Below are positions 55,423-63,987 of a stretch of DNA of 64,000 nucleotides, in pieces; the first letter of the stretch is position 1, and the number at the start of each line of letters is the position of its first letter. This stretch comes from Psychroflexus tropicus DSM 15496 (GTDB lineage: Bacteria > Bacteroidota > Bacteroidia > Flavobacteriales > Flavobacteriaceae): assembly GCF_000378765.1 (NCBI RefSeq), contig NZ_KB905345.1:1-64000 (forward strand), in the 5' to 3' direction. A program made the position numbers and the translations under genes. The notes beneath the pieces are model-generated. The model was not told where the DNA came from, did no database searches, and saw only the letters and a program-made list of their open reading frames with translations.

Positions 55423-56154
55423 TTATTTGATTTTGATCCCATGTTGGTCAAGATGATTTTTTAAAGACATTAAAATTTGAACTGAATTTTGTGTATCACT
55501 GTGCACGCAAATGGTATCGAATTTCTGAGGAATACTTTCTCCTGAAATCGTGCTTACCTTTAGATCCTCAACCATTTTTAAAACTCGATTTGAAATCTGG
55601 ATGGGATCACTCAAAACAGAGTCTTTTTCACCCCTAGACACTAAGCTTAAATCTGAATTGTAGCCTCGATCTGCAAAACCTTCTGTCCATAACCTAATTG
55701 AAATGGGTATTTCAGAGCTAAACTCAAGCTTAGGTGGAACAAAGAGAATAATATCTTGATTTCGTTCTGTAATGACTTCCAACACTAGATCAGCTATTGC
55801 TTTATCCTTTCGCATATCGTTATACAAAGCCCCGTGAGGTTTAATATGATGTAAGTCGACTTCAAATTCTTGACAAGCCATTTCTACCAGATCAATTTGT
55901 TGATGAAGTGAAGTTTTTAAGTCTTCTCTCGGGAGTGATACCGAAGTTCTTCCAAAATTAGTTGGATCTGGATAAGAAGGATGTGCTCCAATATGCACGT
56001 TATGCTTTTTAGCTAAGCTCACAGCTTTATGTACTGAGGCCTTATCACCATAGTGACCACCACAGGCAATATTACAAGAAGAAATTAGAGGCATCAGGTC
56101 TTTATCAAACTCCCCTCCTTCCCCTAGATCACAATTGATATCGATGTGCTTCAA
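55423..56154 (-). CDS. pxpA: 5-oxoprolinase subunit PxpA (LamB/YcsF family)
   Basis: This 243-aa member of the LamB/YcsF family opens with DINCDLGEGGEFD and has SCNIACGGHYGDKASVHKAV, GAHPSYPDPTNFGR, HHIKPHGALYNDM and the histidine-aspartate CVHSDTQNS near the end. It begins the operon pxpA-pxpB-pxpC for detoxifying 5-oxoproline, a spontaneous product of glutamine and of proteins. It is divergent from the DUF4139 gene. Confidence 0.95.
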   Translation of the reverse strand: MKHIDINCDLGEGGEFDKDLMPLISSCNIACGGHYGDKASVHKAVSLAKKHNVHIGAHPSYPDPTNFGRTSVSLPREDLKTSLHQQIDLVEMACQEFEVDLHHIKPHGALYNDMRKDKAIADLVLEVITERNQDIILFVPPKLEFSSEIPISIRLWTEGFADRGYNSDLSLVSRGEKDSVLSDPIQISNRVLKMVEDLKVSTISGESIPQKFDTICVHSDTQNSVQILMSLKNHLDQHGIKIK

Positions 56155-56232
56155 TTTTTTTTATTTGAAATGTATAAAAGATTAGACGAGTTCAAAACTA
56201 TTTTAAGTATTTTTCAGCATAAAATCAATCCA

Positions 56233-58086
56233 ATGAAAACTCTATTTGCTAGTCTTATTCTATTCATATTCACAATAAACCAAGTTCAAGCTCAGCACAA
56301 AACCCAATCCGTAACTTCAAAGGTGGTTTCTGCTGTAGTTTACAACTCAGGAGCTCAGGTCACTTCACAAAAAAAAATTCAGCTTAGTAAAGGGACTCTT
56401 ACGTTGATCTTTGAAGATTTGACGCCAAATATTGATGAATCAAGCATTATAGTGAATGGTCTCGAAGGCATCAGTCTTAGTTCTATAACTTATGAAACCG
56501 ACTATTTAAATGAAATGAAAACCTCCAAAGCTCTGGAAGAACTAAAGTCAAGTCTAAAGGAAATAGAAAAAGAAAAGGCCTTTGCGGGGAACAAAAAACT
56601 GTCCTTAGAAAAATCGATTCTTCTGTTGGAAAAAAATCAAGAGTTGAAAAGCAAGGAGAGTGAACTTAATGTGGCGAAAATCAAAGCATATAAAGAGTAT
56701 TATGCCAGTGAGATAGAATCGCTAAATAACTCTATCTATAGTCTTGGTATAGCCATAGAAGAATTGGAAAAATCCCGAAAAAAATTGGTTCAGGAAATCA
56801 ATAAACTGGAAAGTGAAAACCGCGTCAATAGAGGGAAAATCAGCTTAGAATTAGAGGTCACTAAATCAGTTTCCACCAATTTAAGCCTCAGTTATTTTAT
56901 CTATGATGCTGGTTGGTACGCTTCTTATGATCTCAAATCGAAGGGAATAGATCAGGACATGTCCTTAAGCTATAAAGCTAAAGTGTATCAAACCAGCGGC
57001 CAAGATTGGGAAAATATTACTCTTAAACTTTCCACAGCAAATCCTGTATCCAACAAGACCAAACCCGAATTAGAACCTTATTATTTGGATTTTGACAGAA
57101 CTCTTAAACCCATTTCAAAATTAAGATCATCAAATTTTAAATATAATCCTAATGTAAGAGAGGTAAGAGGGAAAATATTAGATAATGAGGGATTACCATT
57201 ACCTGGTGTAAATGTAAGTATTGGAAATAGTGGTACTCAAACGGATTTTGATGGAAATTATGCTCTAAAAGTTAATGGTGGTAGAAATATTAGATTTAGC
57301 TACATCGGTTTTAAAAGTCAATCATTACCTATATACAGCAGTAATATCAATTTGACCTTAGAACCGGATAATGCTAGCTTAGATGAAGTTGTTGTTGTAG
57401 CTTATAGCTCTTCAAAAGGCTCCAATGCTGTAAATGAAATAGCAGAGGAAGAAGTGACTGAAATCGTAGAACAGCAAAACTCAGTTGAATTTATCTTACC
57501 GAAATCTATCAGCCTGAGCTCTTCGCGTGACCCAAAACAGTTTCAACTCGATCAACATGAGTTAAAGACTTCGTACCAGTATTACGTAGCCCCTGAAATA
57601 TCAGAGTCAGTGTTTTTGATGGCAGAATTGGAAGACTGGCAAGATTTAGAACTTATTTCAGGAGAAGCTAATCTATACTTTGAAGACAGCTATCTTGGTA
57701 ATACGTTTGTAAATACAGCTCAATTGGAAGACAATCTTGTTTTCTCTTTAGGAATTGATGATAAGATACTTTTAGACAGAACACTGCCTAAGAAGAAGAC
57801 TTCTAAAAATTTTTTTGGAAGTACGACTATTGTGGATAAGGCCTATGAATTGGAGTTAAAAAACAATAAGCGATTAGCCACTTCTATACTGGTTCAGGAA
57901 CGTTTGCCCATTTCCAGAAATGAAGCGATAAAGATCGAAAACAAAACTTATCAGGGAGCAACTCTCGATGAGGACAAGGGCTATTTGAATTGGGAGTTTA
58001 ATCTCGAACCAGGAGCAACTAAAACTTTAAAGTATAGCTACACAGTAAAGTATCCAAAGAATAGAAGGCTTTACTTAAGACCTTAA
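56233..58086 (+). CDS. DUF4139/MuiA-like secreted protein with an inserted carboxypeptidase-regulatory-like domain
   Basis: About 617 aa from the ATG at 56233 (MKTLFASLILFIFTINQVQAQ, a clear signal peptide); an in-frame start at 56146 would overlap pxpA. It has an N-terminal DUF4140-like part and coiled coil (about 90-200) and a C-terminal DUF4139 barrel-like domain, the mucoidy-inhibitor-A type. Inserted at about residues 310-395 is a CarboxypepD-regulatory-like beta-sandwich (GKILDNEGLPLPGVNVSIG, GFKSQSLPIY) followed by LDEVVVVAY, the string seen at the N-terminus of SusC-type receptors. Its stop is 1 bp from the detached yifB fragment. Confidence 0.85.
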   Translation: MKTLFASLILFIFTINQVQAQHKTQSVTSKVVSAVVYNSGAQVTSQKKIQLSKGTLTLIFEDLTPNIDESSIIVNGLEGISLSSITYETDYLNEMKTSKALEELKSSLKEIEKEKAFAGNKKLSLEKSILLLEKNQELKSKESELNVAKIKAYKEYYASEIESLNNSIYSLGIAIEELEKSRKKLVQEINKLESENRVNRGKISLELEVTKSVSTNLSLSYFIYDAGWYASYDLKSKGIDQDMSLSYKAKVYQTSGQDWENITLKLSTANPVSNKTKPELEPYYLDFDRTLKPISKLRSSNFKYNPNVREVRGKILDNEGLPLPGVNVSIGNSGTQTDFDGNYALKVNGGRNIRFSYIGFKSQSLPIYSSNINLTLEPDNASLDEVVVVAYSSSKGSNAVNEIAEEEVTEIVEQQNSVEFILPKSISLSSSRDPKQFQLDQHELKTSYQYYVAPEISESVFLMAELEDWQDLELISGEANLYFEDSYLGNTFVNTAQLEDNLVFSLGIDDKILLDRTLPKKKTSKNFFGSTTIVDKAYELELKNNKRLATSILVQERLPISRNEAIKIENKTYQGATLDEDKGYLNWEFNLEPGATKTLKYSYTVKYPKNRRLYLRP

Positions 58087-58087
58087 A

Positions 58088-58444
58088 TCAGCCCAACCAG
58101 CCATCGCGATCCAGGCTTCTGTATTGGATAGCTTCAGAAATATGGCTCCCTTGAATATCTGGGCTAGACTCCAAATCGGCTATGGTTCTGGATACTTTCA
58201 ATATCCTATCGTAGGCTCTTGCCGATAGGTTAAGCCTTTCCATGGCGGTCTTTAGCAGTGTTTTTGAAGATTCCTCTAGCTTACAGAAGGCTTTGATGTG
58301 CTTCACGTTCATTTGAGCATTATAATGCACATTTTCAAAGTCTTTGAAGCGCTCAGTTTGAAACTCCCTGGCTTTAGTCACGCGTTCTCTTATTTGTACA
58401 CTGCTCTCCCCTTTTCGTTCATCACTCAGTTTATCAAAAGGCAC
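58088..58444 (-). pseudogene. yifB: detached 3' end of yifB (second copy, about 118 codons)
   Basis: The protein of this fragment is identical to the last ~118 residues of the intact YifB at 60664-62202. The DNA (58092-58444) differs at 7 of ~353 positions, all of them synonymous, and homology ends at the stop codons (TGA here, TAA in the intact gene). Upstream of 58444, two more codons still align (TP), then similarity stops. It lacks the ATPase and N-terminal domains, so it is probably a remnant. It is convergent with and 1 bp from the DUF4139 gene, the likely original location of the yifB end. Confidence 0.92.
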
Positions 58445-58450
58445 AGGGGT
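58088..58450. repeat. ~360-bp direct repeat, left copy (yifB 3' end)
   Basis: Same-orientation repeat of 60664-61026, about 98% identical. Differences by my reading lie at 58147 (C/T), 58172 (C/T), 58181 (T/A), 58194 (T/A), 58202 (T/A), 58298 (G/A) and 58403 (G/A), with two more beyond the fragment edge. Confidence 0.9.
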
Positions 58451-58459
58451 TATCGATAC

Positions 58460-58469
58460 AATTCTACTG
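58460..58469 (+). repeat. 10-bp direct repeat AATTCTACTG, left copy
   Basis: Lies 15 bp inside the yifB fragment boundary. The identical string at 60647-60656 is 7 bp from the stop of the intact yifB, so the pair brackets the insert. Chance agreement of this length between two short AT-rich windows is possible but uncommon. Confidence 0.4.
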
Positions 58470-58641
58470 AAGTATTAAAACTAACCTAATAATCAATTAA
58501 AGCTCGTATTAAGATTAGAAACTTAAAATCTTGTTAAGTAGCCAAACAATAGTTAATTACGGTTTTCCCGTACATGGATTATTTATTGTAATAATTTTAT
58601 CTCTTATTCCCTTTGCAGTATTTTTTTAACTTAAAAAGATT

Positions 58642-59671
58642 TTGAAACAATTTAAGCTCTTTTTCTTTATTCCAATTTGGTTATTATATGAAGTATTTCA
58701 TAATTTATCTAGTATTTCATTTCCCTGGCTAACTCTAGGTAATTTATTTTCAACTAATGTTAATTTAGTTCAATGGTATAACTACACTGGAGTTTTAGGT
58801 GGAAGTTTGTGGTTTCTTACAATATGCTATTTTTTATATTGTGTCATAAATCATAAAAAACGTAGATACTACCTCATTTCGGTTTTATTACTTTTCTTGC
58901 TACCAAGTATTTTTTCTATAAACTATTTTATTGTAAAAAAATCAGAAAATGATAGAACTTTAAGGGATAAAACTTTTATAACCTTCAATAACGAAAAAGT
59001 TTCTGATTCATTATACGGAAAAGATTTGGCCTTTTATATACTTAAAAAAACAAGAAACTTGAAAGCCAAAAATAAGGTTTTAATTATTCCAGAGACAACA
59101 TTTAAAGGACTAAATATTGATAAATTTCAACATCATTTAATATATAAATTTTTAGAAAAAATAATTACGGAAAACGGTTTTGAAGAAGTTTACTTTGGTA
59201 CTTCACTGTATAAATCTAAACAATACATTGCCAATGGTAGTGTATTTATAACAAAAAAAAAATTACACTAAAACGAAAGAAAAATTAATTATATTCAATG
59301 AATATGTACCTAAAATATTTTCTACAACACTATTTAAGAAAAAATTTAATCCTTACGCTAATGATACATCCGATAATATTACAAATGATCTAGGTGTTTT
59401 ACCGCTTATCTGTTATGAAGCATTTTACTGCTACTTTATACTGCAAAAAAATGAAAATGCAAAAATCATGTATTTATTATCAAGCGAAAAATTTTTTAAT
59501 AATACTATTTGGGGTGCTAGACAATATAATAATATTCTCAAATTACGTTGTATTGAAAATAAAATGCCAATGATTAAAAGCTCTAATTATGGGAGTTCAA
59601 TCATGATAGATTCTAAAGGTAATATTTTGATTGAACTGAACGATGAATTAAATATTTTTAAAAACAGCTAA
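58642..59671 (+). pseudogene. lnt: apolipoprotein N-acyltransferase-like gene, truncated and frameshifted
   Basis: The reading frame from TTG at 58642 (210 codons) matches the later TM region of Lnt (SFPWLTLGNLFSTNVNLVQW, YTGVLGGSLWFL) and the start of its nitrilase domain (VLIIPETTF). It stops at 59271, but the frame shifts at a run of ten A (59253-59262). Removing one A gives a continuous 342-codon frame to 59671 containing LPLICYEAFYCYF, the catalytic cysteine region, and SSNYGSSIMIDSKGNI. The first ~100 residues of Lnt are missing; upstream, 58558-58626 encodes YGFPVHGLFIVIILSLIPF, similar to Lnt TM1, ended by TAA at 58627. So it is a decayed gene, or one expressed by slippage. Confidence 0.8.
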
Positions 59672-59681
59672 TCATCCACTT

Positions 59682-60527
59682 ATGAGGCAAATAATTATAG
59701 TATTTTTTTTCATGAATTACTTGCTTATACATAGCCAGCCGAATGAGTTTGAAATTGGGATTTACAACGTTAGTTTGGGTGGAATTGGAAGTGGGATTGG
59801 GGCTGTTATAAATAAGAAACCTAATGAAAAATTTTTAAAAGTATTTACTAATGGATTCTTGAAAGGATCAGTTGGTGGAGCTCTAATTTTTGGGAGCAAA
59901 AAAATGGTTAGCCAAATTTATATTGAAGAGAAATTAGAGTATAATTGGCCTGCAAAAGTATTGAACTCGTTGGGTACATCTATAATTGAAAATGCCTCCA
60001 GCAATAGAGGGTTTTTAGAACAAATTCATATAAATATAGGGTTTAATCGAATTGAGTTTTACCCGAATGAAGATTTTAGGGTTAAATATAAATTAATGCC
60101 AGCTGCTTTTGTCACAACATTTGTTAGCGCAATAGATAGTAAACCCGAATGGAATCTAATGTTACGTTCTGGTGAAGTAATATTTTCTACAAATGAAAGT
60201 AATTTGAATAATTTAAATGCCCAAGCGTTATTAACAAGTTTTAAAGTAAGAGAATCTGAAATTAAAAATTACTCAGTCTTGGCTCATGAAATTATACACC
60301 TTTATCAATATAACGACTATAATTTTGTAAATCCTTATTTTAACAATTACACTGATAAATTAAGTATGGCTAACAATTTTATTAAATCATACATATATTG
60401 GGATTTTAATTCAATTGTAATAGGTGGTCTTTATCAATTAGAAAACATTAATAGATCTAATTATTACGATAATTTTTATGAATATGAGGCAGCATTTTTC
60501 TCAGACACTTTATATCAAATTGACTAA
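59682..60527 (+). CDS. secreted HEXXH-motif protein, conserved in Flavobacteriia, unknown function
   Basis: This 281-aa protein has a signal peptide (about 1-18, LLIHSQ) and, after a glycine-rich segment SLGGIGSGIGAVINKKPNEK, a long stretch with NWPAKVLNSLGTSIIENAS. Near the C-terminus is the zinc-protease-like HEIIHLYQY (H202, E203, H206), and YEYEAAFF (about 266-272) offers a possible third ligand. From memory, similar proteins with GAVINKKPNEK and HEIIHxYQY occur in other flavobacteria. It starts 10 bp after the lnt-like gene, so the two form one unit. Peptidase activity is only suggested by the motif. Confidence 0.75.
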   Translation: MRQIIIVFFFMNYLLIHSQPNEFEIGIYNVSLGGIGSGIGAVINKKPNEKFLKVFTNGFLKGSVGGALIFGSKKMVSQIYIEEKLEYNWPAKVLNSLGTSIIENASSNRGFLEQIHINIGFNRIEFYPNEDFRVKYKLMPAAFVTTFVSAIDSKPEWNLMLRSGEVIFSTNESNLNNLNAQALLTSFKVRESEIKNYSVLAHEIIHLYQYNDYNFVNPYFNNYTDKLSMANNFIKSYIYWDFNSIVIGGLYQLENINRSNYYDNFYEYEAAFFSDTLYQID

Positions 60528-60572
60528 TCATATCTATTATACAATAAAAGAATCCAAAAGGTTTAACGCCTA

Positions 60573-60595
60573 GGTATGAAGATTTCCTTCGTATC
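60573..60595 (+). terminator. weak hairpin downstream of the HEXXH gene
   Basis: GGTATGAAG-ATTTC-CTTCGTATC can form a 9-bp stem with two G-U pairs. There is no T-run after it, so it may be only a 3' stabilising hairpin. Confidence 0.3.
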
Positions 60596-60646
60596 TACGT
60601 ATCAATTATAATTTAAGAATATTATTTACTTATGTTGTTTTTAGTA

Positions 60647-60656
60647 AATTCTACTG
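60647..60656 (+). repeat. 10-bp direct repeat AATTCTACTG, right copy
   Basis: Identical to 58460-58469; see there. Confidence 0.4.
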
Positions 60657-60663
60657 CATTAAC

Positions 60664-61026
60664 TTACCCCAACCAGCCATCGCGATCCAGGCTTCTGTAT
60701 TGGATAGCTTCAGAAATATGGCTTCCTTGAATATCTGGGCTAGACTCTAAATCGGCAATGGTTCTGGAAACTTTCAAAATCCTATCGTAGGCTCTTGCCG
60801 ATAGGTTAAGCCTTTCCATGGCGGTCTTTAGCAGTGTTTTTGAAGATTCCTCTAGCTTACAGAAGGCTTTGATATGCTTCACGTTCATTTGAGCATTATA
60901 ATGCACATTTTCAAAGTCTTTGAAGCGCTCAGTTTGAAACTCCCTGGCTTTAGTCACGCGTTCTCTTATTTGTACACTACTCTCCCCTTTTCGTTCATCA
61001 CTCAGTTTATCAAAAGGCACGGGAGT
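60664..61026. repeat. ~360-bp direct repeat, right copy (yifB 3' end)
   Basis: The same sequence as 58088-58450, about 98% identical, as part of the intact yifB. See the left copy for the differing positions. Confidence 0.9.
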
Positions 61027-62202
61027 CACTTCAATATGAATATCAATTCTATCGAGCAAAGGTCCACTTATTTTACCCAAATAGCGTTGCATCTCTGCTG
61101 GAGAAGAGGTCACGGGTGCATCAGGATCGTTAAAGTACCCACCAGGACTTGGATTCATACTGGCTACTAGCATAAAACTTGAGGGATAAGTAACCGTAAA
61201 TTTAGCTCTGGAGATGGTTACTTCTCTATCCTCTAAAGGCTGACGCATGACTTCCAACACTGTCCGTTTAAATTCAGGCAATTCATCTAAAAATAGAATA
61301 CCATTATGAGCTAAAGAAATCTCTCCAGGTTGCGGATAGGCTCCACCACCTACAAGGGCTACATCTGAGATCGTGTGATGCGGGCTTCTAAATGGGCGTT
61401 CAGCCATCAATCCTACATTTTCTTTGACTCTACCCACAACAGAATGAATTTTGGTGGTTTCCAAAGCCTCGTGCAGGCTCATAGGCGGTAAAATACTTGG
61501 CAAGCGTTTGGCCAACATGGTTTTACCAGAGCCAGGAGGACCAACCATGATAATATTATGACCCCCAGCTGCAGCAATCTCCATACAGCGTTTGATGGAT
61601 TCCTGACCTTTAACATCGGCAAAATCATACTCAGGATGCGCCAGGTTATCATAAAAGATTTCTCTGGTGTTGATCTTCAAAGGCTCTAAAGCTTCGCCTT
61701 TATCAAAGAAATTAATGACCTCACTGATGGATTCTACACCGTAGACCTCTAAATCATCAACGATAGCTGCTTCTTTAGCATTTTGCTTAGGAAGAATAAA
61801 GCCTTTAAAACCTTCTTCTCTAGCCTTAATCGCGATAGGCAAGGCTCCTTTGATGGGTTGCAAACTCCCATCCAGCGAAAGTTCTCCCATAATGATGTAG
61901 CGATCAATGTCTTCAGAGTTGATTTGATTTGAGGCTGAAAGAATACCTAAAGCTAATGTAAGATCATAAGCTGAACCTTCTTTTCGCATATCTGCAGGTG
62001 CCATATTCACGATGATTTTTTTGCCCGGAAACTTAAAGCCATTGTTTTTTAGTGCGGCTTGAATTCTAAAACTACTCTCACGAATGGCATTATCTGGTAG
62101 TCCTACCAAATGGTAGCCAATGCCCTTTTCCATATTGATCTCGATTGTGATAATCTCAGCATCGACTCCAAAAACAGAACTTCCAAAGACTTTAACAAGC
62201 AT
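60664..62202 (-). CDS. yifB: YifB/ComM-family Mg-chelatase-like AAA ATPase
   Basis: This 512-aa protein has an N-terminal Lon-protease-like ChlI domain (about 1-165, with MAPADMRKEGSAYDLTLALG), a AAA+ core with Walker A GPPGSGKTMLAKR (about 218) and Walker B GILFLDELPEF, and a C-terminal Mg-chelatase helical domain. ComM homologues promote branch migration in natural transformation. The gene is intact. Its last ~118 codons are duplicated at 58088-58444, so its 3' end could have been replaced by the copy that arrived with the insert. Homologues of comM are known insertion sites for genomic islands. Confidence 0.93.
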   Translation of the reverse strand: MLVKVFGSSVFGVDAEIITIEINMEKGIGYHLVGLPDNAIRESSFRIQAALKNNGFKFPGKKIIVNMAPADMRKEGSAYDLTLALGILSASNQINSEDIDRYIIMGELSLDGSLQPIKGALPIAIKAREEGFKGFILPKQNAKEAAIVDDLEVYGVESISEVINFFDKGEALEPLKINTREIFYDNLAHPEYDFADVKGQESIKRCMEIAAAGGHNIIMVGPPGSGKTMLAKRLPSILPPMSLHEALETTKIHSVVGRVKENVGLMAERPFRSPHHTISDVALVGGGAYPQPGEISLAHNGILFLDELPEFKRTVLEVMRQPLEDREVTISRAKFTVTYPSSFMLVASMNPSPGGYFNDPDAPVTSSPAEMQRYLGKISGPLLDRIDIHIEVTPVPFDKLSDERKGESSVQIRERVTKAREFQTERFKDFENVHYNAQMNVKHIKAFCKLEESSKTLLKTAMERLNLSARAYDRILKVSRTIADLESSPDIQGSHISEAIQYRSLDRDGWLG

Positions 62203-62352: not shown

Positions 62353-63987
62353 CTAGGACTTATAATGTTTTAATAATTCATTTGTAGAGGAATCATGTTG
62401 ATTTTCAATTTTAGAAAACTGAATATCTTTCAATGTGTTTTTAGCCAATTGTTTTCCTAGTTCAACGCCCCATTGATCGTAGCTGAAAATATTCCAAACC
62501 ACGCCTTGAACGAAGATCTTATGCTCATACATAGCCACAAGTTTTCCAAGAGATTTCGGATTGAGCTGATCAATTAAAATTGAAGTGGTGGGTTTATTAC
62601 CTTCAAAGACTTTAAAAGGAAGTAATTTTTGGATCTCTTCCGTGCTTAGGCCCTGCTCCTCTAATTCCTTATGAACTTCATCCTTCGTTTTACCTTGCAT
62701 TAAAGCTTCAGTCTGAGCAAAGTAATTGGCCATCAAAATATCATGGTGATTTTTATTTCCATATAAAGGCGCTTTAAATCCAATAAAATCACAAGGTATT
62801 AACTTAGTTCCTTGATGAATCATTTGAAAAAAAGCATGCTGAGAATTGGTACCTGGTTCCCCCCAAACAATTGTGCCCGTTTGGTAGTTTACTTTATCGC
62901 CTGCTCTGTCTACACTTTTACCATTACTTTCCATAGAAGCCTGTTGGAGATAAGAGGCTAATTTTTGAAGATACTGGGTGTAAGGAATAATAGCTTCACT
63001 TTCTGCTCCTAAAAAGTTGTTGTACCATATACCTATAAGCGCAAGAACTACAGGTATATTTTGGTCGAAAGTTGCATTTTTAAAATGCACATCCATTTCT
63101 TCGGCTCCATCTAACAGTGCTTGAAAATGTTCTGAACCAAGACTAACAGCAATAGAAAGCCCAGCTGCACTCCATAGTGAAAATCGACCTCCGACCCAAT
63201 CGTACATGGGGAAGATATTTTCTTTCACAATTCCAAAATCTTCTACTGCTGAAATGTTAGTGGATACCGCAACAAAATTATGCTTAACATCGTCTGGATT
63301 AGCTGTTTTCAGGAACCAGTCTCTTATTGTATTGGCATTAGTCAGCGTCTCCTGAGTGCTAAAGGATTTAGAAACAATAACGAATAAAGTCGTCTCTGGA
63401 TTTAGGTGTTTAATCGTTTCCATCACATGATCGCCATCAACATTGGAAACGAAATGGGGTGTGATGTCAGTCTTATAATAAGCCAAGGCGTCTACAATCA
63501 TCTGTGGACCAAGATCTGATCCGCCAATTCCTATATTCACCACATCTGTGAATGTTTTACCTGTATAGGATTTACGATTTCCTGAATTAACCTGATTAGC
63601 AAAATTTTTAATTTTTGCTAATACAGACTGAACGTCCTCATAAACATCAACCCCGTCAACCTGAGCTGAATTGTTTTTAGCCGATCTTAAACCTGTGTGT
63701 AACACAGCACGACCTTCAGTTTGATTGATTTTATCGCCATTGAAGTATTTTTGAATCGCTGATTTCAAATCTGACTCTTCGGCCAGCTTCATTAGCTGAT
63801 TAAACACTTCTTTATCTACAAGATTTTTAGAAAAATCTACCAAAAACTCATTATCATGAATCGAAAATTCTTCAAATCGGTTGGTGTTAGATTCAAATAA
63901 TGATTTTAAATCAAAATTAGCTTGAGATAATTTTTCTAAAGTCTTCCAGGATTTGAAGTTGACAGGTGACGTAGTATTTAAGGGCAT
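62353..63987 (-). CDS. pgi: glucose-6-phosphate isomerase
   Basis: This 544-aa glycolytic isomerase interconverts glucose-6-phosphate and fructose-6-phosphate. It shows the PGI signatures VNIGIGGSDLGPQM, VSKSFSTQETLTNA and the C-terminal block YDQWGVELGKQLAK. Catalytic glutamate and histidine regions FQMIHQGTKLIP and NGKSVDRAG are present. Length is typical of the longer bacterial type. The start ATG at 63987 is 13 bp from the window edge, so any promoter lies outside. Confidence 0.97.
   Translation of the reverse strand: MPLNTTSPVNFKSWKTLEKLSQANFDLKSLFESNTNRFEEFSIHDNEFLVDFSKNLVDKEVFNQLMKLAEESDLKSAIQKYFNGDKINQTEGRAVLHTGLRSAKNNSAQVDGVDVYEDVQSVLAKIKNFANQVNSGNRKSYTGKTFTDVVNIGIGGSDLGPQMIVDALAYYKTDITPHFVSNVDGDHVMETIKHLNPETTLFVIVSKSFSTQETLTNANTIRDWFLKTANPDDVKHNFVAVSTNISAVEDFGIVKENIFPMYDWVGGRFSLWSAAGLSIAVSLGSEHFQALLDGAEEMDVHFKNATFDQNIPVVLALIGIWYNNFLGAESEAIIPYTQYLQKLASYLQQASMESNGKSVDRAGDKVNYQTGTIVWGEPGTNSQHAFFQMIHQGTKLIPCDFIGFKAPLYGNKNHHDILMANYFAQTEALMQGKTKDEVHKELEEQGLSTEEIQKLLPFKVFEGNKPTTSILIDQLNPKSLGKLVAMYEHKIFVQGVVWNIFSYDQWGVELGKQLAKNTLKDIQFSKIENQHDSSTNELLKHYKS

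Follow-up and report, generated by a model that had tools for sequence, protein, structure and literature searches.

A stranded second 3' end beside intact yifB in Psychroflexus tropicus, probably a scar of incoming DNA

Why should the end of a gene be present twice on one strand, once attached to its gene and once alone? The question is raised by yifB (comM), which encodes a Mg-chelatase-like ATPase, in Psychroflexus tropicus DSM 15496, a Psychroflexus-like genome of 3.0 Mb in a draft of 16 contigs. We analysed the first 64,000 nucleotides of its contig NZ_KB905345.1 (assembly GCF_000378765.1), hereafter the window, in which an intact yifB with one 3' allele is followed by an insert of low G+C content and then by a second 3' allele joined to the native neighbour of the gene (Table 1). 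We consider it probable that the second allele is the resident yifB end, displaced and stranded by incoming DNA in an event of the kind described as homology-facilitated illegitimate recombination, and that it belongs to a wider pattern of recurrent scars.

Table 1. Features of the yifB region of the window
Feature	Position	Strand	Remarks
DUF4139/DUF4140 gene	56146-58086	+	PF13598, E 1.3e-48; convergent resident neighbour of the native yifB end
Detached yifB 3' end	58088-58444	-	118 aa from GTG, codons ~394-512; stop TGA
Insert	58451-60663		2.2 kb, 26.2% G+C (window mean 35.5%)
Direct repeat AATTCTACTG, copy 1	58460-58469	+	10 nt; near the insert edge by the detached end
lnt-like gene, first part (LNT_N)	58642-59271	+	PF20154, E 6e-8
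Second open reading frame (ORF)	59468-59671	+	Without Pfam match
281-aa protein	59682-60527	+	HEIIH motif read from the sequence; signal-like N-terminus by eye
Direct repeat AATTCTACTG, copy 2	60647-60656	+	7 nt past the stop codon of intact yifB
Intact yifB/comM	60664-62202	-	YifB-family Mg-chelatase-like AAA ATPase, 512-aa ORF; stop TAA
GATGT core of the yifB recombinase site	61361-61365	-	Codons 280-281, uninterrupted; coordinates computed from codon 280
pgi	62353-63987	-	Upstream neighbour of yifB; C-terminus used as control

The last 357 bp of yifB are present twice, 97.5% identical and ~2.2 kb apart on the same strand, and a DNA search of the genome itself finds these two copies only. 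With the stop codons aligned (offset fixed at 2576), 9 of 357 bases differ, all silently: 58089 (stop, TGA/TAA), 58091 (last Gly), 58148, 58172, 58181, 58193, 58202, 58298 and 58403. Just past the GTG of the detached frame two extra silent differences (58445, Pro; 58448, Thr) bring the total to eleven. An earlier note on this DNA had counted 7 differences in about 353 bases over a slightly shorter stretch, or 9 with the adjoining codons, which is the same observation under a lower count; its claim that every difference is synonymous is borne out (9/9, or 11/11 with those codons). Homology between the ends stops abruptly at ~58450, near which only short words are common to both, and on the other side at the stop codon. 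The detached end matches Mg_chelatase_C (PF13335, E 1e-35); the intact protein is full-length at 512 aa, carries the same domain in its identical C-terminal end as members of the YifB/ComM family do, and is 96% identical to YifB of P. montanilacus.

Which of the two ends is native can be read from an empty site. In P. montanilacus (G007, locus L036), intact yifB lies 1 nt from a convergent DUF4139 gene, the arrangement that the earlier note had proposed looking for. The detached end of the window likewise lies 1 nt from DUF4139, and it shares with P. montanilacus the stop codon TGA and similar following bases; the intact window gene, unlike that of P. montanilacus, ends in TAA followed by unrelated flank. 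Among 23 same-genus loci, DUF4139 stands at most ~100 nt from intact yifB in five (G007, G003, G016, G019 and G022), and G025 retains a DUF4139 remnant. Since the junction of the detached end with DUF4139 is that of the empty site, we take this end as the native resident one, displaced, and infer that the 3' end and flank of the intact gene, together with the insert, came in from elsewhere. The DUF4139 gene of the window also contains a carboxypeptidase-regulatory-like domain (PF13715, residues 340-417) within its DUF4139 match.

Alternatively, a local tandem duplication might have produced the second end, the dead copy then drifting. The two ends are indeed closer to one another than to any compared species (identity to ten other ends of the genus is 74-79% for each), and one further genome discussed below (G047) fits such a history. 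Against this, the stop codons differ and the 3' flanks are unrelated, that of the detached end matching P. montanilacus. Neutral changes in this stretch would be silent in 21-28% of cases, giving a probability of 8e-7 to 1e-5 for nine silent changes in nine if one copy took them all; the earlier estimate of about 1e-5 had presumed just that, with every change on the neutral copy. In a fairer model the intact copy changes silently only while the other drifts, the expected silent fraction is 0.35-0.44, and the probability becomes 7e-5 to 6e-4 (2e-4 to 1.3e-3 without the stop-codon change). With a corrected value of about 2e-4, local duplication is unlikely on this test, and on all the evidence we regard it as very unlikely indeed. 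The silent differences support separate selected histories, less strongly than had first been stated.

Silent differences might also accumulate if the detached 118-aa ORF were itself expressed and selected, its replacement changes being purged. Its frame is open and its residues are conserved, and several detached ends elsewhere are likewise free of stops. However, it covers part of the protein only, its first codon is a Val codon in the intact gene, and stop codons occur in homologous fragments of G296, G286, G171, G131, G377 and G397 (genomes and loci of the survey described below bear G and L numbers). In G296 the detached end contains stops even though its replacement divergence from the intact end (dN) is still 0.044 at a silent divergence (dS) of 1.15. 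Selection on the fragment is thus, in our judgement, a very unlikely explanation.

Taken with the empty site and the dS and dN values of relatives, the silent differences strongly support a history in which each end evolved under selection in a genome of its own, the two genomes being very close, before both came to lie together, and the earlier interpretation of ends selected separately and joined by an incoming segment is supported to this extent. As the ends are 97.5% alike and 74-79% identical to those of other species, the donor would be a conspecific or a near sister. The earlier note had proposed testing which copy groups with the species tree; the ends proved nearest one another, neither groups with another species, and the bases of relatives at the nine sites assign neither copy to one. 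An assembly chimera of two strains could produce a similar picture from a draft of 16 contigs with alleles this alike, and the earlier note had allowed for assembly errors. Contamination is estimated at 0.09%, however, the joint between insert and tail offers no long repeat to mislead an assembler, and single-contig genomes, G296, G387 and G443 among them, show the arrangement too; a chimera is hardly credible.

How might the resident end have been displaced without loss of the gene? Incoming DNA would have recombined by homology on the yifB side, bringing a donor 3' end, its flank and cargo, and its far end would have been joined illegitimately within resident yifB near codon 392. In this way yifB would stay whole, no downstream gene would be lost and the old tail would be left stranded. 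The combination of a homologous with an illegitimate joint would account for a tail whose 3' end is kept while its length is arbitrary, for the retention of the neighbouring gene and for the lack of an integrase. For the homologous joint, the silent differences and the alien flank of this single strain are consistent with a donor allele continuous with resident yifB.

The same final structure would be produced by a single crossover of the Campbell type, in which a circle carrying cargo and a yifB 3' fragment integrated into yifB; the circle might have arisen by excision in a genome that had the same direct repeats. Long direct repeats could both excise such a circle and reintegrate it, and a study of Escherichia coli conjugation describes ligated circles that integrate by single crossing-over (PMC3240628). 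This route needs a circle whose yifB fragment begins at codon ~393, and no Flavobacteriaceae occur among the best 20 of 24 phage and the best 30 of 53 plasmid matches to yifB codons 277-512; the matches listed belong to other groups of bacteria, and among these records and 57 viral loci L198 alone, a viral contig that does end in these codons, was inspected for a tail without the 5' part. We regard integration of a circle as unlikely.

Is the arrangement peculiar to P. tropicus? The C-terminal 123 aa of YifB were searched in 397 genomes of the family, of which 349 matched, and at least two matches were found in 27 of these, the window included. The N-terminal 123 aa gave at least two matches in 6/349 (Fisher P 2e-4 against the C-terminus) and the C-terminal 123 aa of pgi in 1/384 (P 3e-8), both control counts being raw and without case-by-case inspection. 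Besides the window, 14 of 26 genomes were confirmed to have an intact yifB with a tail 0.4-8.6 kb downstream, on the same contig and strand. In the loci compared, all tails that keep codon 500 or beyond (19/19) lie downstream on the same strand, a figure biased by the choice of most stretches around known tails; in 80 named loci, examined up to 7 kb on both sides at E 1e-5, the corresponding figure is 2/2. G275, with a piece on the opposite strand 0.45 Mb off, is a distant exception. In a sample of the wider class, 6/118 other genomes gave at least two matches, with the pieces on one contig in two (G491, G537). Some genomes hold several pieces: G286 has three, and G425 has codons 454-482, 276-300 then 494-512, and 454-512, with one or two ORFs between. 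G062 repeats the case of the window, for in its congeners G292 and G442 yifB lies beside a gene that, by eye, resembles the one following the detached end of G062.

Own intact and detached ends were compared in eight pairs, shorter tails being left out. The counts of silent and replacement changes were 9/0 in the window, 17/9 in G062, 9/2 in G243, 4/2 in G237, 72/13 in G424, 99.5/11.5 in G178, 91/23 in G296 (86/21 on recount) and 1.5/5.5 in G047. Against one neutral copy, with the silent fraction of the window, P is at most 7e-18 for G424, G178 and G296; it is 0.005-0.006 for G062 and G243, while G237 (0.17) and G047 (0.83) fall short of significance. The dS and dN values are 0.66 and 0.024 in G424, 1.24 and 0.021 in G178, and 1.15 and 0.044 in G296. 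Local duplication followed by drift is impossible at such values, and in each of these three genomes the two ends had evolved in different lineages, as working genes, before coming together. Each of the eight detached ends, compared with 15 intact genes, is nevertheless closest to that of its own genome. The earlier note had held that relatives with the same tandem arrangement and clustering copies would speak against its interpretation; both the arrangement and the clustering were found, but the dS and dN values of G424, G178 and G296 exclude the local duplication that these would otherwise imply. Comparison of G424 with G265 is ambiguous, both 3' ends of G424 (dS 1.7 and 2.19) being more diverged than the 5' part (0.79). 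In G047, which belongs to another family, the insert between the yifB ends (L033:6138-7673) seems by eye to encode an OLD-type AAA/TOPRIM nuclease.

Elements that break yifB occur in the same group. In G352, G098, G342 and G204 a large serine recombinase gene adjoins the yifB frame where it ends, at about codon 280, and in G004, whose frame ends there too, the recombinase lies at the far end of the element. In G004, which is of the same genus as the window, a 9.5-kb element splits yifB at codon 280 and the gene is not regenerated (L034:4244-15358). Pfam confirms the recombinase in G004, G342 and G204, and 31-48% identity identifies it in G098 and G352. A GATGT core stands at the junction in G004, G352, G098 and G204; none was seen in G342 at the place searched. 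Two further observations concern broken genes. G352 (L072, L073) has, besides its interrupted yifB, three more tail pieces and about 12 similar short genes (MINFFRKIRQQLL...) downstream, and in G048 yifB is cut at about codon 128 (L035:3872-18001); the genes that follow seem by eye to be a resolvase and transposition genes of the Tn7/Tn5053 type, much as in the AbaR islands of comM.

Detached ends that start at codons 273-277 accompany an intact yifB in G178, G424, G425, G286 (twice), G237, G296 and G243. They look like the right-hand product of recombinase insertion, and we read these genomes as ones in which yifB was broken and later restored by an incoming yifB. The word CACATTA stands just before the core in four of the eight scars (G178, G424, G425 and one of the two in G286; the chance expectation was not computed) and in two of three elements with a recombinase (G098 and G352), G004 having CACATTT. 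G424 keeps a further piece of codons 264-281 that ends in the core, 52 bp after intact yifB. At the end of the viral contig L198 stand yifB codons 277-512, and near them a 595-aa protein with distant similarity (21-26%) to large serine recombinases; no GATGT core was seen in the 45 nt examined. In two genera, represented by G243 (L071:9331-10044) and G296 (L055:7418-8110), TGTTACAAATGG lies just before a yifB piece from codon ~275 and may mark where a second family of elements ends.

Did such an element act in the window? Its junction is not at the codon-280 core, which is intact, the detached end starting at codon ~393. A site-specific element with its own yifB 3' end could regenerate the gene and displace the native end at a fixed crossover; the anatomy of the window fits, the tail of G047 starts at nearly the same codon (395), both edges of the insert have a 10-nt direct repeat nearby, and there is a real recombinase site where the fragments from codons 271-277 cluster. 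On the other side, the insert is without a recognized recombinase, other tail starts spread over codons 330-494, the five genomes with the codon-280 recombinase have a broken yifB, and the G047 pair looks neutrally diverged. Overall, tails begin at codons 275-277, 332, 368, 390, 395 and 433-494, a site being recognized for the ~276 cluster only. We therefore regard a site-specific element as distinctly improbable; a fixed attachment site near codon 393, a candidate prompted by codon 395 of G047, was dropped for the scatter of starts and the neutral-like divergence of that pair.

When 2.2-kb stretches were sampled in the window, none of the 309 had a G+C content as low as that of 58445-60663. 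The lnt-like gene of the insert has a counterpart elsewhere in the genome, another lnt-type gene at C6:96993-97571, with 33% identity where the two match. The frame of the insert gene seems to be broken at an A-run near its end (59240-59275), the second ORF being probably the rest of the gene, and this break could reflect a pseudogene, phase variation or a sequencing error. The 281-aa protein has no family match above cut-off and a weak SprT-like match (E 0.025) under the curated one; it is matched in 5/59 relatives, in two of them broken or partial. When the insert genes were sought in 60 genomes, P. tropicus included, no matching gene was noticed beside yifB. Neither the Pfam matches of the insert ORFs nor a tblastn search with six large recombinases revealed a large serine recombinase. 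A transposon with target-site duplication does not fit either: the repeat lies near, not at, the ends, and none of the three insert ORFs matches a transposase family. Words as long as AATTCTACTG are common to 20 of 2879 random pairs of 45-nt insert stretches.

The wider pattern would be one in which yifB, a gene reported to promote transformation, is repeatedly hit by elements with large serine recombinases, and restoration or replacement by incoming yifB leaves scars, sometimes several in a genome. In its fullest form, yifB of the Flavobacteriaceae would be a fossil record of repeated breaking and rescue, in which every round leaves the former 3' end behind downstream and two or three such ends pile up in some genomes, with the tail of the window as a young layer left when an interrupted yifB was restored by the end of a neighbouring strain. 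We offer this as a tentative possibility, less likely than not. For the window itself a prior interruption at codon 280 is unsupported, as both the arm word CACATTA and leftover yifB pieces were sought in the insert and none was found.

That absence weighs against our interpretation, as do several other observations. The 10-nt flank repeat is unexplained by the proposed mechanism. The analysis covered one strain of the species, in which donor and recipient alleles and the crossover point are not directly distinguishable. The G047 pair fits plain duplication and drift. The 27/349 genomes include false cases: among the 12 left besides the window and the 14 confirmed, the second match is a full-length paralogue in G143 and was not reproduced with the full-length query in G150, G163 and G353; the pieces lie on separate contigs in G084, G131 and G211; the second piece in G275 is 0.45 Mb off on the opposite strand; yifB is broken in G312, G348 and G352; and the tail in G243 is 39 kb away. 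The nearest 80 named yifB loci have a detached tail within 7 kb in 3 only, all short (L091, L146 and L152, which also served among the controls, as did L052 from G275). CACATTA is absent at the other four of the eight codon-280 scars, and the fetched stretches of 18 scar loci contain no large recombinase, although L072 among them belongs to G352, whose element lies on L073. An enrichment of recombinase remnants at scars was looked for and not found, small resolvases being no commoner there (1/18) than in controls (5/89).

Even so, stranding of the resident end by a homologous and an illegitimate joint would make the odd duplicated tail of the window understandable as a recombination scar. Clean recombination leaves no trace, so that the regain of broken competence genes is hard to see. 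Stranded yifB tails, by contrast, are a countable trace that can be mapped onto a phylogeny, with silent divergence giving its age, and with them the question of regain would become testable. A limited search of the open-licence literature found no description of such tails, which is a weak negative.

Prophage 21 and e14 in E. coli icd replace the 3' end of their target by a near-synonymous version and displace the old one. The window differs in that no integrase was found and no fixed crossover codon applies: the scattered tail starts do not show the recurrent, identical crossover codon of icd. The gene itself is known as a major target. A survey of large serine recombinases assigns 12.4% of its predicted site-specific integrases to a magnesium chelatase gene (PMC10083194), and TnsF elements are described as targeting the Walker B region of comM/yifB (PMC10293859). 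Three papers report mobile elements in comM, with a likely advantage in blocking transformation (PMC4774983, PMC10293859, PMC11472951), and in one of them blocking transformation is seen as a way for elements to avoid being cured through that process (PMC4774983). Riemerella anatipestifer YifB mutants are tabulated among those with lost or decreased transformation (PMC8459023). The interrupting elements (AbaR/Tn6022, Tsy and those with large serine recombinases) share their target with the window, in which, by comparison, the gene is whole, only a tail is displaced and no element genes are recognized in the insert.

The closest likenesses lie in recombination. Recovery of comM by recombination has been raised for Acinetobacter, where recombination tracts showed no excess over chance (PMC11472951). 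There, as we propose here, incoming homologous DNA would make comM whole; unlike in that study of tracts, the old end is here physically left, readable and countable. With homology-facilitated illegitimate recombination, as described in PMC3240628, the window would share one homologous and one illegitimate joint and a gain of foreign DNA. That process was followed experimentally, whereas our case is argued from anatomy, with an illegitimate joint that would lie inside the anchor gene itself and so duplicate its tail.

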